NCBI RefSeq assembly: GCF_001579945.1
Contig: NZ_CP011971.1
Location: 770,001 to 834,000, forward strand
Reading direction: 5' to 3'
DNA length: 64,000 nucleotides
Origin: Steroidobacter denitrificans
GTDB lineage: Bacteria > Pseudomonadota > Gammaproteobacteria > Steroidobacterales > Steroidobacteraceae
Shown one piece after another: positions 7,703 to 44,261 of the stretch; the first letter of the stretch is position 1, and each line of letters begins with the position of its first letter. The position numbers and the translations under genes are program-made. Below the pieces are notes generated by a model that was not told the DNA's origin, did not search any database, and saw only the letters and a program-made list of their open reading frames with translations.

Positions 7703-8200
7703 TCAGGTATCCCCGCCGCCGGCCTGCAACCGTTTTGCGGCAAGGCGCACCGCGGCAATGATATTCTGGTAGCCGGTGCAGCGACAAAGATTGCCGCTCA
7801 GGGTGTGTTGGATTTCCTCGTCCGTGGGCGAGGGATTGTCGCGCAGCAGCTCCAGGGTGGTCATCATGAAACCTGGAGTACAGAAGCCGCACTGCAGGCC
7901 ATGAGCCTCGATGAAGGCCTGTTGGATCGGATGCAGCTGTCCGGTCTCGGGTTCGCGCAGTCCTTCGACCGTCTTGATGTCCGCGCCATCGACCTGCGCC
8001 GCCAGTGTCAGGCAGGAGCGGGCCGTACGCCCGTCGAGTTGAATGGTGCAGGCGCCACAGATGCCGTGTTCGCAGCCGACGTGAGTGCCGCCCAGGCCAA
8101 GCTCGTGGCGCAGAAAATCGGCAAGCGTCAGCCGAGGCTCGACGTCGCGCTCATATGTTGTGCCGTTCACCGTTACGCGAATATGTCGTTGCATGCTCAT
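7703..8200 (-). CDS. molybdenum hydroxylase, [2Fe-2S] small subunit
   Basis: This 165-residue iron-sulfur subunit belongs to the xanthine dehydrogenase/CO dehydrogenase family. The N-terminal plant-type ferredoxin domain has Cys43, Cys48 and Cys51 (CEHGICGAC) and Cys63. The second, all-helical [2Fe-2S] domain has Cys104 and Cys107 (CGFCTPG) and Cys139 and Cys141 (CRCTGY). It passes electrons from the molybdenum centre to FAD. Its ATG overlaps the stop of the FAD subunit by 4 nt (ATGA), so translation is coupled. The matching large subunit is encoded on the other strand at 10924-13347. Confidence 0.95.
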   Translation of the reverse strand: MSMQRHIRVTVNGTTYERDVEPRLTLADFLRHELGLGGTHVGCEHGICGACTIQLDGRTARSCLTLAAQVDGADIKTVEGLREPETGQLHPIQQAFIEAHGLQCGFCTPGFMMTTLELLRDNPSPTDEEIQHTLSGNLCRCTGYQNIIAAVRLAAKRLQAGGGDT

Positions 8201-9084
8201 GCCGCTCTCCGACCGGCGCGCTCGACCGCTTGTGCCAGGCAGCGTTCGGCCAGCGTCTTTATCAGGTCGCGGCGGTATTCACTGGATGCATGAGCGCAGG
8301 TCATGGGTTCTTCCAGTGCCGCGGCTGCTGCTGCCGCAGCGCGCGCCAGCGTTGCTGGATCAGGGGGGTGCCCATTAAGCGCTGCTTCCCCGGCGCTCAG
8401 ACGTACCGTCGCCGGATTGACACCGAAAGCCGCCATGCGCGTGTCCTGGCAAACGCCGTTCTGCAGACGCAGGGTGACGGCAACGCCGGCGAGCGCGAGA
8501 TCACCCCGACGACGCGCAAATTCCTGAATGGCCCAGCCTGTGCCTGCGGGCATGATCGGCATGCGTACCTCGGTCAGGATTTCATTCGATTCCAGGCTGG
8601 TGGTCATGTAGGTCACGAAGAAGTCGGCTGCCGGAATGATGCGCTCGCCGGTGGGGCCGACGGCTTTCATTTCCATGTCGAGCACCAGCGCCACGGCTGG
8701 ATATTCCGAGGCTGGATCGCCGTGCGCGAAGGAACCGCCGACCGAGCCGCGGTTGCGAATCGTGAGGTGGGCAACGAGCTGCGTGGCAGCGTGGAACAAG
8801 GGCTGTCGGGTGCGGATCAGATCCGAGTCCTCAGCCTCGCGCTTGCTCGTCATGGCGCCGATGACGATCCAGCCCTTTTCCTCGCGCAGACCCCGCAGTT
8901 CGGCGATATCTTTCAAGTCGATCAATATTTCGGGACGCGCGACCCGCATGGCGAGCATCGGCATCAGGCTCTGGCCGCCGGCAAGGATTTTGGTGTCCTT
9001 GCCTTCGTTTTCGAGGCGCTCGAGCAGCGCCACGGCTTCGCCGAGCGTGCTCGGGGTGAGATAATCGAACGCAACTGACTTCAT
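8197..9084 (-). CDS. molybdenum hydroxylase, FAD-binding medium subunit
   Basis: This 295-residue subunit of the CoxM/xanthine dehydrogenase FAD family shows the two FAD loops ILAGGQSLMPMLAMR (about 33-47) and TIRNRGSVGGSFAHGDPASE (about 108-127). The C-terminal CO dehydrogenase flavoprotein domain spans about 180-290. It takes electrons from the iron-sulfur subunit and passes them to an acceptor. It is the first gene of a two-gene minus-strand unit. Its upstream region holds the candidate operator at 9261-9280, shared with the divergent genes. The substrate of the complete enzyme cannot be read from this subunit. Confidence 0.94.
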   Translation of the reverse strand: MKSVAFDYLTPSTLGEAVALLERLENEGKDTKILAGGQSLMPMLAMRVARPEILIDLKDIAELRGLREEKGWIVIGAMTSKREAEDSDLIRTRQPLFHAATQLVAHLTIRNRGSVGGSFAHGDPASEYPAVALVLDMEMKAVGPTGERIIPAADFFVTYMTTSLESNEILTEVRMPIMPAGTGWAIQEFARRRGDLALAGVAVTLRLQNGVCQDTRMAAFGVNPATVRLSAGEAALNGHPPDPATLARAAAAAAAALEEPMTCAHASSEYRRDLIKTLAERCLAQAVERAGRRAA

Positions 9085-10923: not shown

Positions 10924-13347
10924 ATGCCCATGGTACACAGAGAACCTCGCCTCGAGGATATCCCCGCCAGCTCGCTACGTTTCCTGGGCAAGGACGTGCA
11001 GCGCATCGACGATGTGGCCCTGGTCTCGGGCAGCGTTGAGTTCATCGACAATATTTCGGTGCCGGGTATGCTGCACTGCGCGATCAAGTACAGCAGCATC
11101 GCGCATGCGCGTATACGGCAGATCGATATCTCCAAGGCAGAGCAACTGCCGGGTGTCTTCGCCATCGTTACCGGGGAAGACGTTCGTAAGTCGACCAATC
11201 TCTCCGGCGGCTTTCCCGAGGGCACAGGTTCTTTCTGCATGGCGACCGACAAGGCGCACTATGTAGGCGAGCCCATCGCCGCCGTGGCGGCCGTCAGCCG
11301 CCAGGTCGCCGAGGATGCGGTCGAGCTGATCGAAGTCGAGCTCGAGCCGCTGGCGCCGGCGGTCGACACGCTCGAGGCCATGAAGCCCGGCAGCCCGCTC
11401 GTCATCGAGGAATTAGGCAGCAATATTGCACTGCAACGGCAATTCATCTGGGGAGAGGTGTCCGAAGCCTTTGCACAGGCCGATCAGGTCTTCGAGGATC
11501 GCTTCCGCTGGCATCGTATGGGCGCCAATCCCATGGAAACCTTCGGGTGCATCTCCCAATGGGATCCGGTGACCGGAATGCTCAATATCCGCGGCAGCAC
11601 CCAGTCACCGCTGATGTATGCCGCGGGCGCTGCTGCCACGCTCGGCATACCCACCAACAAGGTCAATTTGACCAGCACTCAGCGCGGCGGCAGTTTCGGC
11701 GGCAAGGGCAATGCCCGCGGTATCGCCATCACCAGCCTGCTGTCGCGCAAGGCCGGCGGCCGTCCGGTCAAGTGGATCGAGGACCGCATGGAATATCTGA
11801 CCAGCGGCAGCAGCCAGGCCTGGGATCGGTATTATGAGGCCCGTCTTGCCGTTAAAAAGGACGGTACGGTCACCGGATTTCACGTCAAGCTGATCGAGGA
11901 TATCGGTGCCAGCGGCGAGGGTTACGGGGCGATGGGGGCCGGCAAGCCGCTCAGCGCCTTCACCGGCTGTTATGCGATACCGACAGCGTCCTATGATTTG
12001 ACCCTGGTGCTCAGCAACAAGGTGCCGACCACCGCCTATCGCGGCATGGGACCGCCGCCGCATTTCTTTGTGCTGGAACAGATGATGGATCTTGCGGCGC
12101 GCGGCCTCGGGCTGGATCCGGCCGAGATCCGTCGTCGGAATTACATCCGCCCGGAACAATTTCCATACATCATCCCGAGCGGTAATGAGTATGACAGCGG
12201 CGAGTACGAGGCGGCGCTCGACAAGGCGATGGAAATCTCGAGCTATCGGGAGTTGCGCAAGGAACAGGAGCGCGCCAGGGCCGAGGGGCGTATCGTCGGT
12301 ATCGGTGTCGCCAACACTGTCGAGCCGGGTGTATTCGACTGGAATGCCTATGCCATCGTCGGTATGCAGGCCATCGGCATTCCGGAGGGCATCACCGTTT
12401 CGATCGATGCCTTCGGCCGTATCACGGCACGAGTCGGCTTCACCAGCGAGGGACAGGGCCAGTACACGCTGATCGCGCAACTGCTCGCCGATTATTTCGG
12501 TACGGAGATGACCGATATCACCGTGACGCCGCTGAACACGCTGGGTGCGCCGCCGTCCTTCGGACCCGGCGGCAGCCGGCTGGGTGTCGCCACCGCCGGC
12601 GCCACCATGAAGGCAGCCGGCAAGCTCAAGAAAAAGATCATCGAAATTGCCGCGGTGCTGCTGCAGACGCCGGCGGAAAAGTTGGAGTTCATCGACGGCA
12701 GGGTACAAATCATCGGCATGCCCGAAGCCAAGGTGAATCTCACGGATATTGCCGGGGTTGCACATGGCCGCAGTGATCTGTTGCCGCCCGGAATGGAGAT
12801 GGGCCTCGAGGCGACCGGCATCTGGACGGCCCATGGCCGCAATCCGATCGACGATCAGGGCCGTGCCAAGAGCTACCTGACGGCGGCCAACGCCTGCCAC
12901 ATCGTCATGGTCGAAATCGATCGCGGCACGGGCCGCGTCAAGATATTGAAGTATGTGGTGGTGGATGACTGCGGTACGCGCCTCAATCCGGCAACCGTGG
13001 AGGGCATGACGCAAGGCGGCGTGGCCCAGGGCGTCGCTGCGGCCCTGCTCGAGGAGTATCCCTACACGACGGATGGACAGCCACAGGCGACGACCTTCGT
13101 GGACTATCTGCTGCCGACGATGAACGAAGTGCCCATGACCGAGAAATTCGCATTGGTTACGCCTTCACCGATCGCTCCGCTTGGCGCCAAAGGTTGCGGA
13201 GAGGGGTCGTTGCACACCACTCCGGCAGCGGTCATGTGTGCCGTCAACGATGCACTGGCGTCCATCGGAGTCATGGCACGTGAAGTACCTGCCTCACCAC
13301 ATCGCATCTGGAAACTGCTGCAAGCGGCCCGGCAACCCCAGGAGTAA
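10924..13347 (+). CDS. molybdenum hydroxylase, molybdopterin-binding large subunit
   Basis: This 807-residue catalytic subunit of the xanthine dehydrogenase/aldehyde oxidase family binds molybdopterin cytosine dinucleotide or a related cofactor. The N-terminal ald_Xan_dh_C domain starts near residue 20 (GKDVQRIDDVALVSG). Mo-cofactor loops are GGSFGGKGNARG (about 256), AYRGMGPPPHFF (about 370), TSEGQGQYTLIAQ (about 507) and APLGAKGCGEGS. The Glu in that last motif (residue 760, codon 13201) matches the catalytic base. The enzyme should hydroxylate a substrate carbon using water-derived oxygen. Its iron-sulfur and FAD partners lie on the opposite strand at 7703-9084. No chaperone gene of the XdhC/CoxF type is nearby. 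Confidence 0.94.
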   Translation: MPMVHREPRLEDIPASSLRFLGKDVQRIDDVALVSGSVEFIDNISVPGMLHCAIKYSSIAHARIRQIDISKAEQLPGVFAIVTGEDVRKSTNLSGGFPEGTGSFCMATDKAHYVGEPIAAVAAVSRQVAEDAVELIEVELEPLAPAVDTLEAMKPGSPLVIEELGSNIALQRQFIWGEVSEAFAQADQVFEDRFRWHRMGANPMETFGCISQWDPVTGMLNIRGSTQSPLMYAAGAAATLGIPTNKVNLTSTQRGGSFGGKGNARGIAITSLLSRKAGGRPVKWIEDRMEYLTSGSSQAWDRYYEARLAVKKDGTVTGFHVKLIEDIGASGEGYGAMGAGKPLSAFTGCYAIPTASYDLTLVLSNKVPTTAYRGMGPPPHFFVLEQMMDLAARGLGLDPAEIRRRNYIRPEQFPYIIPSGNEYDSGEYEAALDKAMEISSYRELRKEQERARAEGRIVGIGVANTVEPGVFDWNAYAIVGMQAIGIPEGITVSIDAFGRITARVGFTSEGQGQYTLIAQLLADYFGTEMTDITVTPLNTLGAPPSFGPGGSRLGVATAGATMKAAGKLKKKIIEIAAVLLQTPAEKLEFIDGRVQIIGMPEAKVNLTDIAGVAHGRSDLLPPGMEMGLEATGIWTAHGRNPIDDQGRAKSYLTAANACHIVMVEIDRGTGRVKILKYVVVDDCGTRLNPATVEGMTQGGVAQGVAAALLEEYPYTTDGQPQATTFVDYLLPTMNEVPMTEKFALVTPSPIAPLGAKGCGEGSLHTTPAAVMCAVNDALASIGVMAREVPASPHRIWKLLQAARQPQE

Positions 13348-13350
13348 GAC

Positions 13351-14331
13351 ATGGCGAAAAACGATTATTTCATCATCGATACCGAGACGCATCCCATCGA
13401 CGGTTCGATATGGCATCAACTGGCTCCGTATCCGGGTACGCAGCGCTTCATGAACTCTCTGCAAGGTTGCATCCGGCCGGTCATCCAGGAGTTCCCCTCC
13501 CTGGAGAGCGGCGATGCTGGACCTTTCGAAAAAATGATCACCAACATGGATGCCTCCGGGACGGATCTGGCCTGCGTCATCCCGGAAGGTTTTCTTTTTT
13601 GCACCGAAGGACCGACGCCGATTTCAACCAATGCCTGGATGCTGACCGGGGTGCAGAAGTATCCCGATCGTTTCATCATGTGTCCGAATTTCGGCCCGAT
13701 CATCCAGCGCGGCGTGCCGGAAGCCATCCGTGAAATGGAATTCATGGTGAAGGAATTCGGTGTCAAGATTTTCAAGTTCTATTGTCCCGAAGATACCTAT
13801 ATCAATGACAAGCGGCTCTGGCCTTTCTATGAGAAGGCGCAGGAGTTGAACCTGGTGATGCAGGTACATACCGGAACGGGCTATGTTTACGGCGCCCGTA
13901 ACAAATACTGTCATCCCGGTCTTCTCGAAGACGTTCTTTATGATTTCTACGATCTGCGTATCGTCGCCTTTCATTTCGGCTGGCCCCATCATCGTGAATT
14001 AAACTGCCTGGCGGCGACGTTCCCGAATCTGTACATCAGCGTGAGCTTCCTGAATGCGGCGGCGACCTGGCGGCCGAAATTCTTTCAGGAGCTGATCGGA
14101 GAGGCCATGCTCTACGCCACCTCCGACAAGATCGTCTGGGGCAGCGATACCAATGGCTCCGGCATGAAAGACTGCGTGGATCCATTCCTCACCTTCCAGA
14201 TCGATGAGGAAGGCCATCGGGGTTGGGGTTATCCCTACATCACCGAGGAAGACCGCGCCAAGATCTTCGGCCTGAACATGGCGAAACTTCTGGGGATCGA
14301 CCCGACAAAAAGAGCGAAACGCCCGGCCTGA
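13351..14331 (+). CDS. amidohydrolase 2 / ACMSD-family metal-dependent hydrolase
   Basis: This 326-residue TIM-barrel protein belongs to COG2159 (2-amino-3-carboxymuconate semialdehyde decarboxylase-like). The metal ligands can be placed: DTETHP near the N-terminus, the His of MQVHTGTGY near residue 173, the His of AFHFGWPHH near 210, and the Asp of VWGSDTNG near 265. Members decarboxylate or hydrolyse cyclic or aromatic acids. The start codon is 3 nt after the molybdenum subunit stop and follows GGAG, so the two are co-transcribed. It may act on the hydroxylated product of the molybdenum enzyme; that is an inference from position. Confidence 0.88.
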   Translation: MAKNDYFIIDTETHPIDGSIWHQLAPYPGTQRFMNSLQGCIRPVIQEFPSLESGDAGPFEKMITNMDASGTDLACVIPEGFLFCTEGPTPISTNAWMLTGVQKYPDRFIMCPNFGPIIQRGVPEAIREMEFMVKEFGVKIFKFYCPEDTYINDKRLWPFYEKAQELNLVMQVHTGTGYVYGARNKYCHPGLLEDVLYDFYDLRIVAFHFGWPHHRELNCLAATFPNLYISVSFLNAAATWRPKFFQELIGEAMLYATSDKIVWGSDTNGSGMKDCVDPFLTFQIDEEGHRGWGYPYITEEDRAKIFGLNMAKLLGIDPTKRAKRPA

Positions 14332-14530: not shown

Positions 14531-15394
14531 ATGACCCAGACCGTAATCGAGCAGACCGTTTCCGTAACAAGCACTGTCCTGGCAACAGATGAAGGTCGTC
14601 AGCGGGGGCATTGGTTTTCGACCAATCCAGACAAGGCCTGGGGCGAGAAGTTTTTTCTTGCCTATCTGCCGTACTTCTTCGCGCTGAATTACGCCAAGCA
14701 GCTCATGGGCTGGATGAACGTCAACACGTTCTGGCACATGACCCAGAATCTGGCGCTGTTGCTGCCGCTGATCATCATCCCGGCTGTCCTGAGGCCGGCC
14801 GTCACCGGGCGGGCATGGTGGGACAACTATGCCGTCAAGATGGTGCTGTGGATGTTCGTCTACAACTTCATCGGCACCTATTTCGGCTGCGAGTATTTCT
14901 TCGATGTGCTGGGCATGGTGTATTACTTCCCGCAGGTCACGCTGTCGCTGGATTCGGCGTTGATGGGCAGCGGTCAGCAAGTCATCCCGCTCGGCATGTA
15001 TTTCAACGCGCCGGCCTTCTTCGTGGTATATCATACGATTGCCGTATTGATGATGCGGCGCATTCGCACCATCGATTCCGGAGCGTTGAAACCGGTGTTG
15101 ACGGTCGTGACCGTGGTCGGGGTCGCCTATCTCATGGCCTTCCTTGAAACCCGGCTGGTCGCCACCGATGCCAACAAGCCGTACTTTTGGTACAAGGACC
15201 TCGGCTGGATGCTGAAGTATGGCTCGTTATTCTATGCCTGCTATTTTCTGCCGAGCTTTCCGATGGTCTTCAGGCTGGAGGAAAAGCCCGGTGATCGCTG
15301 GCCGGTGAGCAAGATCGTGTTCGAAGCCCTGGCGGCAGGCGTACTCGCGATCGTTCTCATCGACTTCGCGACTCACTTCATGCGCAATACTTGA
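14531..15394 (+). CDS. cycloeucalenol cycloisomerase-like membrane protein
   Basis: This 287-residue protein has six or seven hydrophobic segments. It resembles plant cycloeucalenol cycloisomerase (CPI1, EC 5.5.1.9), which opens the 9-beta,19-cyclopropane ring of sterols. Shared blocks, compared from memory, are NPDKAWGEKFFL near residue 32, LWMFVYNFIGTYF followed by YFFDVLGMVYYFP near 115-140, YHTIAVLMMRRIRT near 170, AYLMAFLET near 200, and YGSLFYACYFLPSFPMVFR with EEKPGDRW near 230-260. Length is close to the plant enzyme. The first 28 residues are polar. Cyclopropyl isomerisation is inferred from homology; the setting among catabolic genes suggests use on an imported substrate. A 16-bp tandem duplication spans the stop codon. 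Confidence 0.85.
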   Translation: MTQTVIEQTVSVTSTVLATDEGRQRGHWFSTNPDKAWGEKFFLAYLPYFFALNYAKQLMGWMNVNTFWHMTQNLALLLPLIIIPAVLRPAVTGRAWWDNYAVKMVLWMFVYNFIGTYFGCEYFFDVLGMVYYFPQVTLSLDSALMGSGQQVIPLGMYFNAPAFFVVYHTIAVLMMRRIRTIDSGALKPVLTVVTVVGVAYLMAFLETRLVATDANKPYFWYKDLGWMLKYGSLFYACYFLPSFPMVFRLEEKPGDRWPVSKIVFEALAAGVLAIVLIDFATHFMRNT

Positions 15395-15457: not shown

Positions 15458-17083
15458 ATGAACAATGTCGACCTGAAGAACGAACGTAATCGAATACCTT
15501 TCAGGCTGCTGCGCCTGCATGCCGATGCGATCGGCGACTCGCCGTTTCTGCTCAGCGATGAGCGAAGCTACAGTTACGGTCAGGCGAACGCCGTGGTAAA
15601 CGCCTATGCGCACGGTCTGCGCCGGCTGGGCCTTCAGGCCGGCGACCGGCTGATGCTCTATATGCACAGCTGTGTGGAGTTCGTGCTGCTCAGTCTGGCG
15701 GCCAACAAGCTGGGTGCGCTGTGGGTGCCGGTCAATACCGACTACCGCGGCGAATGGTTGAGCGACACCATCAATGCAAGTAAAGGCGCCGTACTGGTCA
15801 CGGATACGGACTTGCTCGAAAAACTCCGGCCCGTGGAGCGGGAGCTTCGTTACGAGCGGTTGGTCCTGCGCGGTGGAGCGGAGGCTGCCGGCGGGGAATT
15901 CGCCCAGCGCGGCATCGTTTCCCTGGACGAACTGGCAGATAATTCCGAGGCTGAACCTGAGACGAAACATATAGGCTATGGCGATGCGGCGGCCGTGCTG
16001 TGGACCTCGGGTACCACCGGCAAGCCGAAGGGTGTGCTTCAGAGTCATAATGTCTGGATCCGTGCCGCCGTGAACAACGATCGGCTCTACGGCACTCGGC
16101 CCGGCGATATCACTTACAACTGCCTGCCGCTCTACAATTCGGCGGCCTGGGTAGCCAACATCTACCGGGCCTTGACGACCGGTATTCCCTGTGCCCTCGA
16201 TGAACAGTTCTCGGTCTCGAAGTTTTGGGATCGCATCCGGTTTTACGGCGCCACGCAGACGATGACGCTCGGCGCGATGCACATGTTCCTGTGGAATGAG
16301 CCGCGCAAGGCCGACGATGCGGACAACCCGCTGCGGGTGGCGAGCATGGTACCCATGCCGCATAAGCTGATCGCGCCCTTTTGTGAGCGCTTTGGCCTGG
16401 AAGCCATCGTTCAGGGTTTCGGGCAGAGCGAAGTGATGCCTATCCTCACCAAGGCGGAATCGGCCGAGAAGCAATTCAAGCCGAATGCGCTGGGAAAGTT
16501 GTTCGAAGATATGGAACTGAAGCTGCTTCGCGATGATGGCCAGGAAGCCGGGCCGGGTGAACCCGGCGAGTTTACGATTCGACCGCTGGCTCCGCACATC
16601 ATTTTCAGCGGTTATTTCGACGATCCGGAGGCCACCAAAAAGGCATTTCGCGGCGAGTGGTACGGTACGGGCGATCTCGGCATGAGGGATGCGGAGGGAG
16701 ACTACTTTTTCGTCGACCGCAAGAAGGATTATATTCGCTACAAGGGCCGGAATATCTCCTCGCTTCAGGTCGAGGGCATCGCCGCCAGCCATCCCGCCGT
16801 CCAGGCGGCGGCGGTCTATGGTCTGCCCTCGGATACCCTGGAGTCGGAACATGAGATCAAGCTCGATGTGATCCTGAAGCCCGGGCAGCAGCTGCGCCCC
16901 GAAGAACTGGCAGGCTATATCAACGAGCGCGCACCCTACTTTTGTGTGCCGCGTTATATCGACTTCGTCGATGAGTTGCCTTATACGCCCACCCAGAAAC
17001 TCGAGAAGTACAAGCTGCGCGCCAAGGGATTGTCGGCGTCCACCTGGGACCGTCTGAAAAGCGACTTCAAGCTGCAGCGTTAA
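15458..17083 (+). CDS. acyl-CoA synthetase (AMP-forming)
   Basis: This 541-residue ANL-superfamily ligase activates a carboxylic acid as acyl-AMP and then acyl-CoA. Motifs are the P-loop WTSGTTGKPKGVLQSH (about 183-198), YGTGDLGMRDAEGDYFF (about 403) and VDRKKDYIRYKGRNIS (about 422-437). The C-terminal YTPTQKLEKYKL carries the catalytic Lys. It lies downstream of the cycloisomerase-like gene and upstream of module A. It probably primes a side-chain or ring-derived acid for the hydratase/retro-aldolase genes that follow. The natural acid cannot be read from sequence. Confidence 0.93.
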   Translation: MNNVDLKNERNRIPFRLLRLHADAIGDSPFLLSDERSYSYGQANAVVNAYAHGLRRLGLQAGDRLMLYMHSCVEFVLLSLAANKLGALWVPVNTDYRGEWLSDTINASKGAVLVTDTDLLEKLRPVERELRYERLVLRGGAEAAGGEFAQRGIVSLDELADNSEAEPETKHIGYGDAAAVLWTSGTTGKPKGVLQSHNVWIRAAVNNDRLYGTRPGDITYNCLPLYNSAAWVANIYRALTTGIPCALDEQFSVSKFWDRIRFYGATQTMTLGAMHMFLWNEPRKADDADNPLRVASMVPMPHKLIAPFCERFGLEAIVQGFGQSEVMPILTKAESAEKQFKPNALGKLFEDMELKLLRDDGQEAGPGEPGEFTIRPLAPHIIFSGYFDDPEATKKAFRGEWYGTGDLGMRDAEGDYFFVDRKKDYIRYKGRNISSLQVEGIAASHPAVQAAAVYGLPSDTLESEHEIKLDVILKPGQQLRPEELAGYINERAPYFCVPRYIDFVDELPYTPTQKLEKYKLRAKGLSASTWDRLKSDFKLQR

Positions 17084-18082: not shown

Positions 18083-18688
18083 ATGGCTAACAAGTTCGGT
18101 GTTCTGCCGTTCAACAGTCCGGTCGAGCCGACCATGGACTACTCGAAGGTCGCTCCGCTGATCGGCGTACAGAGTCCGAAGCATCTGCCGCACGACCGGG
18201 TGACGGTAGAGGATGTGGATCGCTGGTGCCAGGTGATGCGCGACACCAATCCCCTTTATACGGACGAGGAATACGCGAAAAAGAGCCCCCACGGCGGGTT
18301 GCTCGCGCCCTCGGGCATGGTCCATGTGTTCGCCCTGGGGACGATGAAGGCCGCCATCGATCAATTCGTGCACGGCCAGTGCGAATTTCCGGACGATCCG
18401 AACGTCAAGCTGAATGTCGTGGTCGAGCAGGAGGGCTATACCGGCGTCATGGCGACCGCGCAGCGCCAGCAGCACTTCAAGCGAATCCGGGTGGGCGACG
18501 AGATCCACTGGACCATCGGTATTTTACGTCTTTCGGATTACGATCATCTGACGCGCCAGGGGGTCGGCCGAAAGTATCAGATCCTGTATCAGTTCTATAA
18601 CCAGAATGACGAGTTGCTGTGCAACCAGTCCTTCGACGTGCTCGTCTACCGGGCGCCGATGAGCACTCGTCGGCTGTACGCGGGCTGA
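18083..18688 (+). CDS. hotdog-fold FAS1-like dehydratase subunit, module A
   Basis: This 201-residue protein shows VEDVDRWCQVMRDTNPLYTD (about 47-66) and a following GGLLAPSGMVHVF, then IRVGDEIHWTIGILRLSDYD. These mark the long-hotdog FAS1-like dehydratase type. DTNPLY replaces the catalytic DxNPxH, so the His is missing. It would partner a catalytic MaoC protein, most likely 18726-19166. Its closest relative in the window is 51533-52144 (module C), which shares the DPNPLYWSEEF-like block. A strong CGGAGG site precedes the ATG. Confidence 0.82.
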   Translation: MANKFGVLPFNSPVEPTMDYSKVAPLIGVQSPKHLPHDRVTVEDVDRWCQVMRDTNPLYTDEEYAKKSPHGGLLAPSGMVHVFALGTMKAAIDQFVHGQCEFPDDPNVKLNVVVEQEGYTGVMATAQRQQHFKRIRVGDEIHWTIGILRLSDYDHLTRQGVGRKYQILYQFYNQNDELLCNQSFDVLVYRAPMSTRRLYAG

Positions 18689-18725
18689 ACGCATCCAAGA
18701 ATCGCTTACGAAGAGGAATCAGGCA

Positions 18726-19166
18726 ATGTCGCGCGAGATCAACAATGTCTATTGGGAAGACGTGCAGGTCAAACAGGATCTCCCGGAGAAGAGCCGGGTT
18801 ATCGACACGACGCTGATCGCGATGGGCGCGACCTGGGCCACGCATGACTTCATGCCGGTGCACCATGACCGGGACTTCGCGCAGTCCAAGGGCGCACCCG
18901 ATATTTTCATGAACATTCTCACCTCGAATGGCCTGATGATGACCTACCTCGAGCAATGGGCCGGTCCGCAGGCAGTGATCAAGGACATCTCCATCAAGCT
19001 GTCGGTGCCGAATTTTCCGCGGGACAAGATGGATATGAATGCCCGCGTCACCCGCAAGTGGGAAGAGAAGGGCGAGCATCTGATCGAGGTTGCCTTCAGC
19101 GGCGACAACCAGATGGGGCCGCATGCCAGCGGTACCGCAGTCATCTCTCTGCCGACGCGAGGGTAA
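18726..19166 (+). CDS. MaoC-like enoyl-CoA hydratase subunit, module A
   Basis: This 146-residue hotdog hydratase has the block HDFMPVHHDRDFAQSKGAPD followed by IFMN, which places the Asp/His pair of the hydratase-2 family. In Mycobacterium the ChsH1 type gives the catalytic residues of a heterotetramer that hydrates steroid side-chain enoyl-CoA. It sits between the FAS1-like subunit and the thiolase-fold gene (4 nt between stop and next start). The paralogue 51066-51536 in module C shares the GLPDIFMN and WAGP segments. Activity is inferred from family and order. Confidence 0.85.
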   Translation: MSREINNVYWEDVQVKQDLPEKSRVIDTTLIAMGATWATHDFMPVHHDRDFAQSKGAPDIFMNILTSNGLMMTYLEQWAGPQAVIKDISIKLSVPNFPRDKMDMNARVTRKWEEKGEHLIEVAFSGDNQMGPHASGTAVISLPTRG

Positions 19167-19170
19167 GACG

Positions 19171-20346
19171 ATGTCCTTGAAAAACAAGGCGTGCATCGTC
19201 GGTATCGGTTCGACGGAATTCACCCGCAATGCCGGCCGCAGCGAGATTCATCTCGCCGTGGATGCGGTCACGGCCGCTTGTGTGGATGCCGGCCTGGAGA
19301 TCGATCAGATCGACGGAATGTCGAGCTACGGCACCGCCGGCATCTATGCGGCGGAATTGGCGCCCGATATCGATGTGGCGCGCAGCCTGGGCATTCCCAA
19401 TCTGCGCTACTTCGGACAGACGCCCTGGGGCGGCGGCGCCAGCTGCGGAGTGGTTGCCCATGCGGCCATGGCCGTCGCCTCCGGCGTGGCCAACTACGTG
19501 GTGTGTTACCGGTCGCTGAAGCCGGCCAGCGGTACGGTCCGCTATGGCCGGCCGACGGCCATTCCGGCCGAATACCGCTACAGCTATTACATGCCGTATG
19601 GCTTCGCCAGCCCGACGATGTGGGTGGCGACAATGGCCAAGCGCTGGATGCACGAAACCGGGGCGACGCGCGAGCAGCTCGGCTACGTGGCGCTGGTGAG
19701 TCGCGAGAATGCCTTGCGTAATCCGCGGGCGATGTTCTACGGCAGGCCGCTGACCATGGAGGAGTATCTGCATTCTCCGATGTCCTCGGATCCCTTCACG
19801 CTGCACGACACCTGCCTGGAAAACGACGGCGCCGTGGCGCTGATCGTCACGACGCCGGAACGCGCCCGGGATCTGAAACAAAAGCCCGCTTTCATCGCCG
19901 GTGTCGGCTTCGGTACTTCTTACGATTCGCACAGCATGACGTCTTTTTATCGCGACTCGATCGGTCTGCCGGAATGCACCGAAGCGGCGCGTGAAGTTTT
20001 CCGGATGGCTGAGCTCACGCAGAAGGATATCGACGTCGCGCAGCTCTATGACGCATTCACCGCGACCGTGCCCATGCAGCTGGAGACCTATGGTTTTTGC
20101 AAGTACGGGGAAGGCGGCGCCTTCTGTCAGGGGGGCGATCGCATCCGCCTCGGCGGCGAGTTACCGATCAATACCTCGGGTGGCATGCTGGCGGAAGCTT
20201 ATATTCACGGCATGAACATGATCGCCGAAGGAGTGCGGCAGGTACGCGGCACCTCGACATCGCAGGTGAAGGACGCACAGAACGTGCTCGTCACCGGTGG
20301 GCTCGGCGTGCCGACGACGGCGCTCATCCTCACCCAAGGTAATTGA
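19171..20346 (+). CDS. thiolase-fold retro-aldolase (Ltp2-like), module A
   Basis: This 391-residue protein of the SCP-x/thiolase superfamily begins NKACIVGIGSTEFTRNAGRS. The GHP motif with the catalytic His is replaced by MLAEAYIHG after INTSGG, and the usual HDCFT block reads YDAFT, with Tyr in place of His. These changes are seen in steroid aldolases such as Ltp2, which split 17-hydroxy side-chain CoA thioesters instead of performing thiolysis. Such enzymes need a DUF35 partner; one is encoded 27 nt downstream. ATG 19171 follows GGGTAAGACG; the longer frame overlaps the previous gene. Confidence 0.87.
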   Translation: MSLKNKACIVGIGSTEFTRNAGRSEIHLAVDAVTAACVDAGLEIDQIDGMSSYGTAGIYAAELAPDIDVARSLGIPNLRYFGQTPWGGGASCGVVAHAAMAVASGVANYVVCYRSLKPASGTVRYGRPTAIPAEYRYSYYMPYGFASPTMWVATMAKRWMHETGATREQLGYVALVSRENALRNPRAMFYGRPLTMEEYLHSPMSSDPFTLHDTCLENDGAVALIVTTPERARDLKQKPAFIAGVGFGTSYDSHSMTSFYRDSIGLPECTEAAREVFRMAELTQKDIDVAQLYDAFTATVPMQLETYGFCKYGEGGAFCQGGDRIRLGGELPINTSGGMLAEAYIHGMNMIAEGVRQVRGTSTSQVKDAQNVLVTGGLGVPTTALILTQGN

Positions 20347-20373
20347 CGAGTTTCGCATACGGGAGTCGAGCCG

Positions 20374-20808
20374 ATGTCCATTGAATACAACCCGAAGTAC
20401 ATGAAGCACTTCTATGACCCCGTCTGGGAGAATTTCGAAGACGGGTTCTGGCAGGGCATCAAGCAACGCAAGTTGAAGTTCCAGAAATGCTCCGGGTGCG
20501 GCACGTTCAGCCATCCTCCCCGGGTTCGCTGCCCGAAGTGCAAGGGCGAGGGTTGGGAGTGGGTCGAATCCAGCGGCAAGGGCCGTATCTACAGCTGGAC
20601 CGTGGCACGGCAGGAAGTGCATCCGGCCTTCCGGGTCCCCTTTGAAATCGTGCTCGTCGAAATGGAAAACGAGCCCGGCGTACGCCTTATTTCCAACATG
20701 GTCGACTGTACCCCCGAAGAGATCTCTTTCGACATGCCGGTCGAGGTCTGCTTCAGGGAGGTCACCAAGGAGTGGGCGCTTCCCATGTTCAAGAAAGTCG
20801 GCGGCTGA
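20374..20808 (+). CDS. DUF35 zinc-ribbon/OB-fold partner protein, module A
   Basis: This 144-residue protein has an N-terminal helical hairpin, then a four-Cys rubredoxin-like ribbon (CSGCGTF and CPKCKGEGW, about 36-56). An OB-fold follows, with GKGRIYSWTVARQEVHPAF. DUF35 proteins bind thiolase-fold enzymes and complete the CoA-thioester channel. In Mycobacterium the DUF35 domain of ChsH2 is needed for the Ltp2 aldolase. Placement between the retro-aldolase and the acyl-CoA dehydrogenases supports that pairing. Confidence 0.9.
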   Translation: MSIEYNPKYMKHFYDPVWENFEDGFWQGIKQRKLKFQKCSGCGTFSHPPRVRCPKCKGEGWEWVESSGKGRIYSWTVARQEVHPAFRVPFEIVLVEMENEPGVRLISNMVDCTPEEISFDMPVEVCFREVTKEWALPMFKKVGG

Positions 20809-20823
20809 GCGGCAAGGACACTC

Positions 20824-21948
20824 ATGGATTTCTCGCTGAGTGACGAACAGGAGCTGTTCCGGGATTCGGTTCGCAAATTTCTTCAGGAACGATGTCACTC
20901 GACGCTCCTGAGAGAGCTGGAAAACAGCGACACGGGTTTCTCGGCGGCGCTTTGGGAACAGATCGCCGCACAGGGTTGGACCGGGATCGCGATCGCAGAG
21001 GCCCACGGCGGCTCGGATCTCGGCCTGCTCGAGCTTGGGGTATTACTCGAGGAAATCGGCAGAGCCGCCTTTGACAGCCCGTTTTTTGCCAACCTCATGG
21101 CAACGTTGGCGATACAGGGCGGCGGCAGCGATGCCCAGAAGCAACGGCTTTTGCCCGGTATCGCCGACGGCAACGTGATCGTGTCACCGGCCATCGAAGA
21201 GCTGGGCGTTGCCTATGAACCCCGCTTCGTGACAACTCGTGCGGTACGTGCGGCCGATGGTTTCATCCTCAGCGGCCGCAAGATGTTCGTGCCGTATGCC
21301 AGCATCGCGAACCAGCTATTGGTGCTGGCGAGAACGGCGGGTGCGATCGGTGATGAAGATGGTTGCAGCCTGTTTCTGGTGGATCGCGGGGCTCCAGGTA
21401 TCGAGCTGACACGGCTCGAGAGCATCGCACCGGACCGGCAGTTCCAGGTCGACTTCGGCGACGTAGTGGTTCCGGCGGATGCCGTGCTGGGCGAGGCAGG
21501 TGCCGCGCTGCGAATCCTGAAAGATGTATATCGGCAATGTACGGCCCTGGTCTGTGCGGAAATGCTGGGTGGCGCGGAGTACCAACTCGCCGTCACCGCC
21601 GAGTATGTCAAGCAGCGGACCCAATTCGATCGGCCTCTCGGGTCGTTCCAGGCCGTACAACATCATCTGGCCGACATGTTCACGCTGGTGCAGGGGTCGC
21701 GCTGGACCACCTATCAGGCGATCGAGCAGTTGAGCCGCAATAGGACGGCAGAGCGGGAGATCACCATCGCCAAGGCGTTCTCGAGCGATGCCTGCCAACG
21801 GGTGGCCGCGCTGGCGCAGCAACTCCACGGTGGTGTGGGTGTCGATATGGCGAACGATCTGCAGTTCTACTTCCGCCGTGCCAAGGCGATGGAGCTGAAA
21901 TTCGGCCCGACGCCGGTGCAGCTCAGGCGTCTGGGCGAGCAGCTTTAA
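20824..21948 (+). CDS. acyl-CoA dehydrogenase subunit, module A (ChsE1-like)
   Basis: This 374-residue flavoprotein has the acyl-CoA dehydrogenase fold: N-terminal helices MDFSLSDEQELFRDSVRKF, a middle beta domain with FILSGRKMFVPYA, and a C-terminal domain with QRTQFDRPLGSFQAVQH and QLHGGVGV. The middle domain reads VIVSPAIEELG, unlike the usual TEP(D/G)AGSD loop. That fits an alpha2beta2 enzyme in which one subunit is degenerate at the active site, as in ChsE1/ChsE2. The partner gene starts 30 nt downstream. Module C has the matching gene 49878-51056. Confidence 0.88.
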   Translation: MDFSLSDEQELFRDSVRKFLQERCHSTLLRELENSDTGFSAALWEQIAAQGWTGIAIAEAHGGSDLGLLELGVLLEEIGRAAFDSPFFANLMATLAIQGGGSDAQKQRLLPGIADGNVIVSPAIEELGVAYEPRFVTTRAVRAADGFILSGRKMFVPYASIANQLLVLARTAGAIGDEDGCSLFLVDRGAPGIELTRLESIAPDRQFQVDFGDVVVPADAVLGEAGAALRILKDVYRQCTALVCAEMLGGAEYQLAVTAEYVKQRTQFDRPLGSFQAVQHHLADMFTLVQGSRWTTYQAIEQLSRNRTAEREITIAKAFSSDACQRVAALAQQLHGGVGVDMANDLQFYFRRAKAMELKFGPTPVQLRRLGEQL

Positions 21949-21978
21949 TCTGGACCGGCTCACGCAGCGGGAGCGAGC

Positions 21979-23172
21979 ATGGATTTCCAACTGACCGAAG
22001 CACAGCAGCAGCTGCAACGGGAACTTGTCGCCTATTTGCAAGGGCACATCACGCCTGAGCTGGAAGCCGAACTTCTAGCTCAGCAGGAAGGCGGTGGACC
22101 GGATACGCATCCGCATTACAGCCGATTCATGCGGCAACTGGGGCGCGATGGCTGGCTCGGACTGGCATGGCCGAAACAATACGGCGGTCAGGAAAGGGAC
22201 GCCATCGACCAATACATCTTCTTCGACACCATCAGCGGCTATTATCGAATTCCGATTCCGTTCCTGGCGATCAACGCCATCGGCCCCACCATCATGCGCG
22301 CGGGCACCGAGGAACAGAAAGATCGTTTCCTGCCGCCGCTTCTGCGCGGTGAACTGAACATCGCCGTCGGCTACACGGAGCCTGGCGCGGGCAGCGATCT
22401 GGCCTCGCTCAAGACCAAAGCGGTGCGCGACGGCGATGATTATGTCATCAATGGGCAAAAGGTATTTACCAGCCTGGCGCATTTCTGCGACTACATCTGG
22501 CTGGCGGCACGAACCGATCCCACCGTAAAGAAACACAAGGGTATTTCGATCTTCATGGTGGATACCCGACTGCCCGGCATCACGATCAATCCCCTGCGAA
22601 CCATGGGCGGCTTTCGCACCAATGTAACTTTCTACGACAATGTGCGAGTACCGAAGTCCTGCCTGATCGGCGAGGAAAACAAGGGCTGGAGCTACATCAA
22701 CTCCCAGCTCGCGATGGAACGAATCGGGTTGGTACCGCACTCGCGAATGCGGCGGGTGCTCGAGGACATGATTGCCTGGGCGAAAAATACGACGATCGAC
22801 GGCAGACGTGTCTTCGATGAGTCCTGGGTACGGGAAAGACTGGCCGATCTCACTACAAAGACCGAAGTACTACGGCTGTTCAATTTCCGCGCGGCGAGCC
22901 AGATCAGCCAGGGCATCGAACCTTTCGCGGAAGCGGCCATGACCAAGGTATTCGGCTCGGAGCTCTTTCAGAGTGTGGCGGGTACATGCATGGACATGAT
23001 GGGACTGATCGGGGGGCTGCAGCCGCCGTCGGACATCTCGCCCGCAAAAGGTATTTTCCAGCGCGATTTTGCCGCGATGCGATTGCTGACCTTTGGCGGG
23101 GGAGCCAATGAAGTTCTCAAGGATATGATTGCGCTGGGCGGGCTCGGCATGCCGCCCTCACGACTTGCCTGA
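21979..23172 (+). CDS. acyl-CoA dehydrogenase subunit, module A (ChsE2-like)
   Basis: This 397-residue acyl-CoA dehydrogenase has a canonical substrate and FAD loop, GYTEPGAGSDLASLKTKA (about 132-149), the DDYVINGQKVFTS strand, and NVTFYDNVRVPKSCLIGE. The C-terminal part has PFAEAAMTKVFGSELF. It should carry the FAD site of a heterotetramer with 20824-21948 and introduce an alpha,beta double bond in a branched side-chain acyl-CoA. The module C counterpart is 48629-49822. The flavoprotein gene follows 12 nt after its stop. Confidence 0.88.
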   Translation: MDFQLTEAQQQLQRELVAYLQGHITPELEAELLAQQEGGGPDTHPHYSRFMRQLGRDGWLGLAWPKQYGGQERDAIDQYIFFDTISGYYRIPIPFLAINAIGPTIMRAGTEEQKDRFLPPLLRGELNIAVGYTEPGAGSDLASLKTKAVRDGDDYVINGQKVFTSLAHFCDYIWLAARTDPTVKKHKGISIFMVDTRLPGITINPLRTMGGFRTNVTFYDNVRVPKSCLIGEENKGWSYINSQLAMERIGLVPHSRMRRVLEDMIAWAKNTTIDGRRVFDESWVRERLADLTTKTEVLRLFNFRAASQISQGIEPFAEAAMTKVFGSELFQSVAGTCMDMMGLIGGLQPPSDISPAKGIFQRDFAAMRLLTFGGGANEVLKDMIALGGLGMPPSRLA

Positions 23173-23184
23173 GAGAGGTAGACC

Positions 23185-24879
23185 ATGACCGCGAGCTGGA
23201 ACCATGCCGTCGATGTGCTGGTGATCGGATCCGGAGCCGGAGCCATGGTAGCCGCCTTGACGGCGCATGACCGAGGCGCCTCGACACTGCTCATCGAAAA
23301 GAGCCCGCTCTATGGTGGCTCCTCGGCGAAGTCCGGCGGCGGTCTCTGGATTCCGAATAATCACCTGATGCAGGCAGCGGGTCTGGAGGATAGCCCGGAT
23401 GCCGCCATGGATTATCTCAGGGTGGTGACCCAGGGCCGCGAACCTGAGGAACGGCTGCAGACCTTCGTGATGACCGCGCCGGAAATGCTGCGCTATCTCG
23501 CCGAACGCACGCGTTTCAAGCCGCAGTGCATGCCGACGTATCCGGACTATTATCCCGGCCGGCCCGGCTGGCGCGGCGGCGGCCGGGGCATCGAGTCGGC
23601 GTACTTCGATGCCCGGGTGCTCGGCGAGGAATTCGAGCGCATGGTGGCCTATCCAGGCACCGCGATGATGGGCCGCTACAATGTCACGCTCAAGGATACG
23701 CACGACATGCTCTGCCGCAAGCCTGGCTGGGCAGGGCGCATGCTTCGGGTGCTCGGAAGATATTGGCTGGATCTACCCTGGCGCTTCAGGTCGCGGCGCT
23801 GTCGGGATCTGGCCGCGGGCGCTGCGCTGGTGGCGTCACTACGAGCCTCGCTCATGGATCGTAACATTCCTTTGTGGCTGAGTACTCCGGCACGCGAATT
23901 AGTGTACGAAAACGGCCGGGTGACAGGCGTCGTGGCGGAACGCGATGGCCGTACCGTACGGATTGGCGCAAACCGAGGCGTCATTCTGGCTGCCGGCGGG
24001 TTCGAGTCGAATCAAGCATTGCGTGAGCGTTATCTGCCGGCGCCGACCGATGCCGCCTGGACGGTCGGTAATGTGTACAACACGGGAGATGCGCTCCAAC
24101 TCGGCCAGTCCATCGGTGCCAAGATCGATCTCATGGCCACCTGTTGTTGGATGCCCATCAGTCCGGTACCCGGTTGGGAAAGTCCGGTCGGGATTCTGTT
24201 CGAACGAGCCCTGCCCGGGGGCTATATCGTCAGCCAGGGCGGTGCAAGATTCGTCAATGAGGCGCTGCCTTACATCGATACCGTCGAGGCAATCTATGCG
24301 AACAATCGCCCCGATGCGCCAACGGTGCCATCCTGGCTGATCTGCGACGCGACTTTCAGGAAGAAATACCCTTTCGGACCGCTGATGCCTGCCAGCGTAC
24401 AGCCTGACTGGATGATATCCCGACAGCAGCGAAGCTTCATGAAGAAGGCGAACTCGCTCGAGGAACTTGCACGACTCACCGGTATAAACCTGGCTGGCTT
24501 GAAGGATACGGTGGCCAAGGTGAATCAGTACGCCCGTACGGGTGTCGATCTCGATTTCCACCGCGGCGAAGGCGCCTATGAGCGCTTCTACGGCGATCCG
24601 TTCGTCCAACCGAATTCCACACTCGGACCGATCGAAACTCCGCCGTTCTACGCCATGTCCATCTATCCCGGCGATCTCGGTACGACCGGCGGCTTGAAGA
24701 CGAATGTCCATGCCCAGGTCATGACGGAACAAAATGAGGTGATTCCCGGCTTCTATGCGGTCGGCAACTGCTCGGCCTCGGCGATTGCCGGTACTTATCC
24801 GGGTCCGGGATCGACTCTGGGGCCTGCAACCACGTTTGGCTATATTGCAGCACGTCACCTGACGGCAACGAGCGCCTGA
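23185..24879 (+). CDS. 3-ketosteroid-delta1-dehydrogenase-like FAD flavoprotein
   Basis: This 564-residue protein of the FAD-binding 2 family resembles KstD closely. Shared landmarks are the Rossmann motif VLVIGSGAGAMVAAL (11-25), YGGSSAKSGGGLWIPNN (43-59), YPDYYPGRPG near 119-128, FVNEALPYID (356-365), YPGDLGTTGG near 494-503 and GTYPGPGSTLGPATTFGY near the end. Tyr122/123, Tyr363 and a Tyr in the FYAMSIYPGD block lie where the family catalytic tyrosines are expected. KstD removes 1-alpha and 2-beta hydrogens of 3-ketosteroids. A delta4(5-alpha)-dehydrogenase is an alternative. It is the last gene of module A and the clearest evidence that the pathway handles steroids. Confidence 0.85.
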   Translation: MTASWNHAVDVLVIGSGAGAMVAALTAHDRGASTLLIEKSPLYGGSSAKSGGGLWIPNNHLMQAAGLEDSPDAAMDYLRVVTQGREPEERLQTFVMTAPEMLRYLAERTRFKPQCMPTYPDYYPGRPGWRGGGRGIESAYFDARVLGEEFERMVAYPGTAMMGRYNVTLKDTHDMLCRKPGWAGRMLRVLGRYWLDLPWRFRSRRCRDLAAGAALVASLRASLMDRNIPLWLSTPARELVYENGRVTGVVAERDGRTVRIGANRGVILAAGGFESNQALRERYLPAPTDAAWTVGNVYNTGDALQLGQSIGAKIDLMATCCWMPISPVPGWESPVGILFERALPGGYIVSQGGARFVNEALPYIDTVEAIYANNRPDAPTVPSWLICDATFRKKYPFGPLMPASVQPDWMISRQQRSFMKKANSLEELARLTGINLAGLKDTVAKVNQYARTGVDLDFHRGEGAYERFYGDPFVQPNSTLGPIETPPFYAMSIYPGDLGTTGGLKTNVHAQVMTEQNEVIPGFYAVGNCSASAIAGTYPGPGSTLGPATTFGYIAARHLTATSA

Positions 24880-35970: not shown

Positions 35971-36519
35971 ATGACGTCGTTTCCCCGGGCTGAGCTGGAA
36001 GAAATGATGCGTCGCTGGATCGCCGCCAACGCCAAGGCGGAGGAGATCGGCGACTGGACGGCGATGACCGAGCTTTACACGCCGGATGCCATCTACAGCT
36101 GGAACAACGGTCCGCGCACCGAGTTCGTTGCACGCGGCCGCAAGCAGATCGCCGACTGGGCGCTGGGGACCGAGATGGAGGGTCTCGACTCATGGAAATA
36201 TCCCTACGTGAAGGTATTGATCGACGAGCAACAGGGGCAGGTGATCGGTTTCTGGCGCCAGATCGCGGGCGAGACACGCGCCGACGGCAGCCACTACGAG
36301 ATCGCCGGCACCGGTGGCTCGTGGTTTCGCTACGCCGGAAATTACCAGTGGAGCTGGCAGCGAGATTTCTTCGACCATGCGAATGCGGGCGCGATCTTCA
36401 TGGAGATGCAGAAGGACGGTAAGTTGAACGAGATCATGCAGGAACGCGTTCGCCGGGGTTCGAAAATGCCGGGCTGGCTGCGGCGCACCGAATTCGATTG
36501 GTACGCAACGATCGAATAA
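35971..36519 (+). CDS. SnoaL-like (NTF2-fold) protein
   Basis: This 182-residue protein of the SnoaL-like superfamily shows RWIAANAKAEEIGDW, LYTPDAIYSWNNG, GRKQIADWALG, and a C-terminal RYAGNYQWSWQRDFFDHANA. A very good site (GGAGGAGAAA) precedes ATG 35971. The fold includes isomerases, dehydratases and limonene-epoxide-hydrolase-like enzymes. It is distinct from the first such protein at 9381. It lies between the PQQ dehydrogenase and an SDR, so an isomerase or epoxide-opening role on a terpenoid or steroid intermediate is conceivable but unproven. Confidence 0.8.
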   Translation: MTSFPRAELEEMMRRWIAANAKAEEIGDWTAMTELYTPDAIYSWNNGPRTEFVARGRKQIADWALGTEMEGLDSWKYPYVKVLIDEQQGQVIGFWRQIAGETRADGSHYEIAGTGGSWFRYAGNYQWSWQRDFFDHANAGAIFMEMQKDGKLNEIMQERVRRGSKMPGWLRRTEFDWYATIE

Positions 36520-43368: not shown

Positions 43369-44261
43369 GAGGGGAAAGCGAACTCCGCCCGGCCGTTGCC
43401 GAGCACCACGACGTCGCGTTCGATGACGCGGACACGAAATAACGCATGATCGGCGCGAGGCCAGATTTCCGTGCGCAGCGTTTCTCCCGGAAATACCGGC
43501 GCGGAAAAGCGGGCGCTCAGCGCCGTCAGGCGCTCGGGGCGATTGTCACAGCAACTCGAAAGAATGGCGCGGCCCGCGACTCCGTAGGTGGCCAGTCCGT
43601 GCAGGATGGGGCGCGGGAAGCCGGCGGCGGCGGCCACGCCTGGATCGGCGTGCAGAGGATTGAGATCGCCGGATAATCGATAGATGAGCGCGGTTTCCGG
43701 CCGGGTGGCCAGATCGCAGATTCGTTCGGGCGCGGTATCGGGCAGGACGGGAGGATCGGACGGCGGCGGATCGCTCGGCTGGCCGGCGGGATGTGCCGCG
43801 CTCGGCGCGCTATAGCCGCCATCGCCGCGACAGAAGCTCAGCTGCTCGAGGGTTGCCAGCAATTCGCCGCCGCTTTTTTCCAGCAGGCGTCGTTCGGTCA
43901 CGACGAGCGCGCCCCTGCCGGGACCCTTGTCGACGATGCGGGTGACGGCATTGTGCGCAACGACGGTGCCGCGCGGCGGCAGGGGTTTGTGGATGCGCAG
44001 GCTGTGCTGGCCGAGTACCAGACGCACCCAGTCGATGGTGGAATCCGGGTGCCGGGCCCAGAAGCCCGGAAATCCCAATACGACCGCCTGGGTCGGCAGC
44101 GCCAGCAGATTCTCCTCGTAGACGAAGCGCAGCTGGCGCTCATCGAGCGGATCCATGCCCACCCCGAGGCCGAGCGCGTAAAGAATCGTGTCCTTCTCGG
44201 TGTAGGTCTGCTCGATCGTCCCGAAAGGCCAGGATTTGAGCCGCTGATAATCGAGCGTCAT
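43365..44261 (-). CDS. double-hotdog MaoC enoyl-CoA hydratase 2
   Basis: This 298-residue protein has two hotdog domains, as in the hydratase-2 part of peroxisomal multifunctional enzyme and mycobacterial HtdY-type proteins. The N-terminal half starts YTEKDTILYALGLGVGMDP. The catalytic motif is in the second half: YRLSGDLNPLHADPGVAAAAG followed by FPRPILHGL (about 190-220). A Pro-rich linker near 165 joins the halves. It should hydrate 2-trans-enoyl-CoA to an R-3-hydroxyacyl-CoA, which the SDR at 45130-46050 could oxidise. It overlaps its neighbours by 4 nt on both sides. Confidence 0.93.
   Translation of the reverse strand: MTLDYQRLKSWPFGTIEQTYTEKDTILYALGLGVGMDPLDERQLRFVYEENLLALPTQAVVLGFPGFWARHPDSTIDWVRLVLGQHSLRIHKPLPPRGTVVAHNAVTRIVDKGPGRGALVVTERRLLEKSGGELLATLEQLSFCRGDGGYSAPSAAHPAGQPSDPPPSDPPVLPDTAPERICDLATRPETALIYRLSGDLNPLHADPGVAAAAGFPRPILHGLATYGVAGRAILSSCCDNRPERLTALSARFSAPVFPGETLRTEIWPRADHALFRVRVIERDVVVLGNGRAEFAFPS

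Follow-up and report, generated by a model that had tools for sequence, protein, structure and literature searches.

A CPI1-family membrane protein in the atcA region of Steroidobacter denitrificans and its probable use in the breakdown of foreign cyclosterols

Plant CPI1 (At5g50375), the cycloeucalenol cycloisomerase or cyclopropylsterol isomerase, yields a Delta8 sterol that is the substrate of CYP51 in plant sterol synthesis, and its presence is usually read as a sign that sterols are made by way of cycloartenol. EBP-type sterol Delta8-Delta7 isomerases, which belong to the EXPERA group, are also membrane sterol isomerases by function. A newly described sterol reductase, 8,14-Bsr, takes the product of CYP51 (PMC13277303). 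Lee, Giner and Welander (2026) described the 8,14-Bsr/CYP51 module in methanotrophs, mycobacteria and myxobacteria and examined residues Y37, Y43, Y78, Y80, D133 and D136 of the M. capsulatus reductase (PMC13277303); the word cycloeucalenol does not occur in the main text of that paper. According to work cited there, a Mycobacterium fed lanosterol forms a C19 8(14)-steroid, which shows such processing of trimethyl sterols to be within the reach of bacteria. The third system relevant here is the anaerobic degradation of androgens by Steroidobacter denitrificans through the 2,3-seco pathway (atcABC); degenerate atcA primers for anaerobic androgen degraders are available (PMC5554518).

The stretch of DNA analysed here (the window) is 64,000 nucleotides long and corresponds to bases 770001-834000 of the S. 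denitrificans genome, which is a single contig of 3,467,246 bp and is 100% complete. A sequence-only reading of the window had described a membrane protein encoded at positions 14531-15394 that shares many blocks with CPI1. The ORF is indeed there, on the plus strand: it starts with ATG, contains no internal stops, is intact and encodes 287 amino acids with seven predicted transmembrane helices. Its composition is coding-like (GC of 0.52, 0.38 and 0.78 at the three codon positions, with a window GC content of 61.5%), and no promoter- or terminator-like sites above chance were detected around it. The closest relatives of the protein, encoded by loci L003 and L004 of the sister genomes G060 and G061, are 82-84% identical to it and have N-termini of similar length. 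The AlphaFold model (pLDDT 86.5, pTM 0.84) contains seven long helices and agrees with the polytopic membrane protein of about 280 amino acids expected for the CPI1 family.

The letters of Arabidopsis CPI1 (which we take to be UniProt Q9M643) used in all comparisons are an approximate version of the database entry, and the resulting numbers are to be read as a lead. With this approximate sequence, the window protein aligns end to end over 269 amino acids at about 34-35% identity (E 1e-44), both being membrane proteins of similar length. A profile built from the bacterial relatives scored the approximate CPI1 at 209 bits (the best of 200 shuffles reached 7.2). Out of 32 residues that are invariant across 45 bacterial proteins, 27 are retained in the approximate CPI1, at an overall identity of 34%. 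The strongly conserved charged and aromatic residues K35, W37, E39, K103, Y117, R176, E206 and D278 are mostly present in it too. The claim of shared blocks is borne out provisionally, within the limits set by the approximate sequence.

The sequence-only reading had named assignment to another membrane family as one outcome that would speak against it. Searches of Pfam (E up to 1) and NCBIfam matched the protein to zero models, a sequence search of the PDB gave nothing significant (best E 0.12), and a PDB fold search with the model returned zero matches at E < 0.001. In particular, neither an EXPERA domain nor an EXPERA fold was found by Pfam and the PDB fold search, which sets the protein apart from the EBP-type isomerases. 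For membership in the CPI1 family the sequence comparison gives a lead, and the gene neighbourhoods of the bacterial relatives give stronger support; the protein may open a cyclopropane ring.

The setting of the gene had been called one of acyl-CoA degradation. The catabolic part of this claim is borne out by atcABC, an acyl-CoA ligase, a thiolase and acyl-CoA dehydrogenases, but the description is too broad: the genes around CPI make up the atcABC region, which belongs to the anaerobic 2,3-seco pathway, and next to it comes a side-chain-type module. The plus-strand gene at 10924-13347 encodes a molybdopterin large subunit with MoCoBD/Ald_Xan_dh domains and is atcA, that of the 1-testosterone hydratase/dehydrogenase, a marker gene for anaerobic degradation of steroid ring A. 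It contains both atcA primer sites, the forward one exact (11029-11051) and the reverse one with a single mismatch (12175-12201), 1173 bp apart, within the spacing of 1.1-1.2 kb looked for, and it is the sole match in the genome. Two minus-strand genes encode the probable AtcB and AtcC (in either assignment), namely the 2Fe-2S subunit of the molybdoenzyme at 7703-8200 and its FAD subunit at 8197-9084; homologues of the former (57-68% identity) and of the latter (44-56%) are contiguous with atcA in L092-L095.

On the plus strand, atcA is preceded by a luciferase-like gene and directly followed by an Amidohydro_2 hydrolase gene at 13351-14331 (PF04909, E 1.7e-28). Its product is a good candidate for the 2,3-seco pathway enzyme that cleaves the 1,3-dione of ring A by hydrolysis. 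CPI lies 199 bp further on and is therefore the second gene downstream of atcA. It is followed after 63 bp by a gene for an AMP-forming acyl-CoA ligase (15458-17083, plus strand; PF00501), a candidate for the ligase of the 2,3-seco acid. The side-chain-type module at 18083-24879, on the same strand, encodes two FAS1/MaoC-like dehydratase proteins, a PRK07855 lipid-transfer-type thiolase, a DUF35-like protein, two acyl-CoA dehydrogenases and a 3-ketosteroid Delta1-dehydrogenase-like protein, in this order.

Orthologues of AtcA (at least 59% identity) are present in seven of 50 genomes with CPI. The atcA-amidohydrolase pair is kept in five of the other six (the Amidohydro_2 gene, 38-87% identical, adjoins or is near atcA in L090, L091, L093, L094 and L095), and in none of the six does CPI lie beside atcA. 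The idea that CPI is a constant member of the atcA operon was rejected: in G060 and G061, atcA and the amidohydrolase gene are on contigs without CPI, and on the CPI contigs an SDR gene takes the place of atcA-amidohydrolase upstream of CPI. The CPI-ligase pair itself is kept in L003 and L004, with the ligase (79-85% identity) 17 bp downstream of CPI. Assignment of the NAD-dependent SDR beside CPI as SdmB and of a Rieske protein as SdmA was also rejected, since the scores of 95 and 63 bits are far under the curated cut-offs of 600. The locus thus resembles the known 2,3-seco region in having CPI two genes downstream of atcA, and differs from it in that CPI is undescribed there in the literature consulted and that the adjacency is not conserved.

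A scan of a genome collection yielded 58 CPI loci in Gammaproteobacteria, Myxococcota and Chloroflexi, with neighbourhoods usable for 57 of them, a paralogue from the window genome included. No homologue was found in 59 genomes of the genus, family and order or in 368 other genomes drawn from the class; the gene is therefore rare and scattered in its distribution. The plasmid collection contained no match, and no CPI was found on viral contigs searched with the approximate CPI1 and the bacterial alignment. In the tree, the window CPI groups with those of L003-L006 at full support. The proteins of Cellvibrionales MAGs (L005, L008, L009 and L011) are 55-79% identical to it, and that of L005 (78-79%) is nested with it, again at full support. 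The paralogue (C1:2893715-2894521; L002:1489-2325), a second CPI-family gene whose product is 42% identical, is flanked by SDR genes and a gene encoding the beta subunit of an F1/N-type ATPase and falls into a clade of Solimonas and Haliea proteins.

All ORFs neighbouring CPI loci were grouped by clustering. As can be seen from the groups, the commonest neighbour, at 26 loci, is a P450; among solved structures, CYP51s are its best relatives (442 bits to M. capsulatus CYP51). CYP51 is on the same strand as CPI and at most 1.5 kb from it in 22 of the 57 loci, and in two (L045 and L048) the stop and start of the two genes overlap. A SnoaL/NTF2-like gene homologous to 8,14-Bsr is found near CPI and CYP51 in 13 loci (in nine at most 1.5 kb from CPI), placed between the two or just upstream. 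Two of these CPI-linked homologues fit the published six-residue pattern strictly; in the Cellvibrionales proteins, F replaces the first Y. Since the CPI product feeds CYP51 and the CYP51 product feeds 8,14-Bsr, three consecutive steps (CPI, CYP51 and 14-reduction) appear to be encoded together. Both enzymes of the module of PMC13277303 thus recur at CPI loci, here together with a putative isomerase of the cyclopropane ring and in the absence of sterol synthesis.

The gene order in L005 is Bsr-CYP51-SDR-CPI-luciferase-like, the last gene directly following CPI and overlapping its stop, and homologues of this luciferase-like gene occur in five further CPI loci. Its orthologue in the window is a luciferase-like oxidoreductase gene on the minus strand at 44258-45133 (75% identity). 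The Cellvibrionales loci resemble the window in CPI and in having an orthologue of this protein close by, but they carry CPI in Bsr-CYP51-SDR-CPI clusters with CYP51 kept, whereas the window genome has no CYP51. An 8,14-Bsr homologue is nevertheless encoded in the window, at 35971-36519 on the plus strand; it is 39% identical to the protein that is linked to CYP51 in L005 (E 6.8e-33). Its Y36, Y42, Y77, Y79, D132 and D135 correspond to the six M. capsulatus residues in exact register with an offset of 1, a match reached in none of 20,000 shuffles. CYP51, with which 8,14-Bsr is expected to co-occur, was found nowhere in the whole genome, and it is also absent from G060, G061 and the Solimonas-type genomes. 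With CPI and the 8,14-Bsr homologue present, S. denitrificans would have the steps on either side of 14-demethylation but lack 14-demethylation itself. Another enzyme may fill this gap, the substrates may carry no C-14 methyl, or both proteins may have been repurposed.

The sequence-only reading had seen no sterol-synthesis gene near CPI. This holds genome-wide: the complete genome contains neither a squalene/oxidosqualene cyclase nor CYP51, and it has no credible squalene epoxidase (there is only a partial match of 24 bits to a family that is also matched in the E. coli control), and the full sterol pathway that would have counted against a catabolic reading was searched for and not found. 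Among the 50 CPI genomes, 34 have CYP51 and 43 have a 3-ketosteroid dehydrogenase homologue, but only four have a full-length squalene epoxidase and only five, all from Myxococcota, an OSC-motif cyclase; for draft genomes, such absences are weaker evidence than in the complete window genome. Most squalene epoxidase matches were discarded as short and partial; they are probably other flavin enzymes, and the E. coli control gives such matches too.

All five cyclases with the OSC motif read WPVSDCTAE, with V at the diagnostic position, which denotes lanosterol and not cycloartenol synthesis (PMC4919349). Because of this lanosterol-type valine, their hosts should not make cyclosterols. Three myxobacterial genomes (G090, G095 and G102) have a second CYP51. 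In G090 and G095, one CYP51 is on the OSC contig and another is elsewhere, so that CYP51 counts alone can mislead claims of sterol synthesis. The CYP51 located just upstream of CPI in L042 (G095) is the non-OSC copy, since the OSC contig is shorter than that of L042. Given the lanosterol-type cyclases and the second CYP51 in three genomes, these hosts probably do not use the CPI module for sterol synthesis of their own, and the best reading is that the bacterial module handles foreign cyclosterols.

We therefore favour, with a probability of roughly 0.6, the view that a bacterial CPI1-family isomerase opens foreign cyclosterols for breakdown, including entry into the 2,3-seco pathway in Steroidobacter. 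The analysis shows the gene, its relations to other bacterial members of the family, the gene neighbourhoods, and the lack of sterol synthesis and CYP51 in this genome; what the enzyme converts, by which chemistry, and which way the flux runs are inferred. CPI would protonate the 9beta,19-cyclopropane carbon of a cyclosterol and take away the proton at C-8, so that an ordinary Delta8 sterol bearing a C-10 methyl results. The substrates would be exogenous plant or algal cyclosterols of the cycloartenol or cycloeucalenol type, and the ring-opened sterols would then be open to CYP51, the 8,14-reductase and finally steroid catabolism. A dedicated bacterial cyclosterol route of this kind, in which CPI opens the ring and CYP51 and 8,14-Bsr remove the methyl at C-14 and bring the double bonds into place before steroid catabolism, is a tentative proposal. 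In Steroidobacter, the CPI gene would have been moved to the neighbourhood of the atcA region, or retained there, with CYP51 missing, and its product would feed ring-opened sterols or steroids into the oxygen-independent 2,3-seco pathway; the S. denitrificans enzyme thus probably readies imported plant or algal sterols for breakdown. A catabolic, non-biosynthetic use of CPI is well supported by the context. The sequence-only reading had considered such use of this fold unusual; the catabolic setting agrees with it, but the case is not unique, as CPI lies by CYP51 and 8,14-Bsr in many bacteria without sterol synthesis.

Several facts weigh against this interpretation. The steroids known to support S. 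denitrificans are of the testosterone type and carry no cyclopropane, the usual next step is missing since CYP51 is absent, and CPI lies beside atcA in no other genome examined. One may then suppose that the protein is a broader membrane steroid isomerase, which moves a double bond or a proton within an ordinary steroid (for instance near C-8/C-9/C-10 or in ring A) as a step of the 2,3-seco pathway, with no cyclopropane opened. The place of the gene between the ring-A hydrolase candidate and the acyl-CoA ligase, near atcA, and the lack of CYP51 are in line with this, and androgens are known substrates of S. denitrificans (PMC5554518). Such an isomerase is nevertheless rather unlikely: the protein is 78-79% identical to that of L005, which belongs to a CYP51/8,14-Bsr cluster, all six other AtcA-bearing CPI genomes lack the atcA adjacency, and the 2,3-seco scheme, as summarised in PMC6208644, needs no isomerase step of this kind.

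It is less likely still that CPI binds, senses or moves sterols of the inner membrane and is not an enzyme at all. It is an integral membrane protein that matches no solved fold, and we know of no catalytic assay of a bacterial member; but its charged and aromatic residues are strongly conserved and mostly retained in CPI1, and the family has a tight operon link with two sterol enzymes. A plant-like part in sterol biosynthesis, which membership in the CPI1 family, the adjoining CYP51 of many relatives and the sterol-synthesis genes of some myxobacterial hosts would favour, is highly improbable and, for the window genome, largely refuted by the missing cyclase, CYP51 and credible squalene epoxidase in a complete sequence; the OSC hosts, in turn, are of the lanosterol type, three of them with a second CYP51. 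Compared with plant CPI1, then, the Steroidobacter protein has a host that makes no sterols and a gene in a steroid-catabolic region, and its bacterial family is linked to CYP51 and 8,14-Bsr, the former being absent from the window genome. Foreign cyclosterols as substrates for breakdown remain the preferred reading.

In the open-licence literature, we found no earlier description of a bacterial enzyme that opens the cyclosterol ring, nor of a bacterial CPI in catabolism. Since bacteria that cannot make sterols have CPI linked to CYP51 and 8,14-Bsr, finding CPI or CYP51 in a bacterial genome or MAG does not prove sterol synthesis, a caution that bears on genome-based claims of bacterial sterols and on biomarker work. 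CPI loci point to breakdown genes for cyclosterols, the first sterols of plants and algae, and the bacterial CPIs are concrete proteins for work on the mechanism and fold of CPI1, which is absent from the PDB by sequence and fold search.

A further conserved protein was noticed at the myxobacterial loci. A membrane protein of 234 amino acids, encoded near CPI and CYP51 in L042 (13498-14202, minus strand) and in eight further myxobacterial CPI loci, matches no Pfam or NCBIfam model and is a possible candidate for another sterol enzyme.
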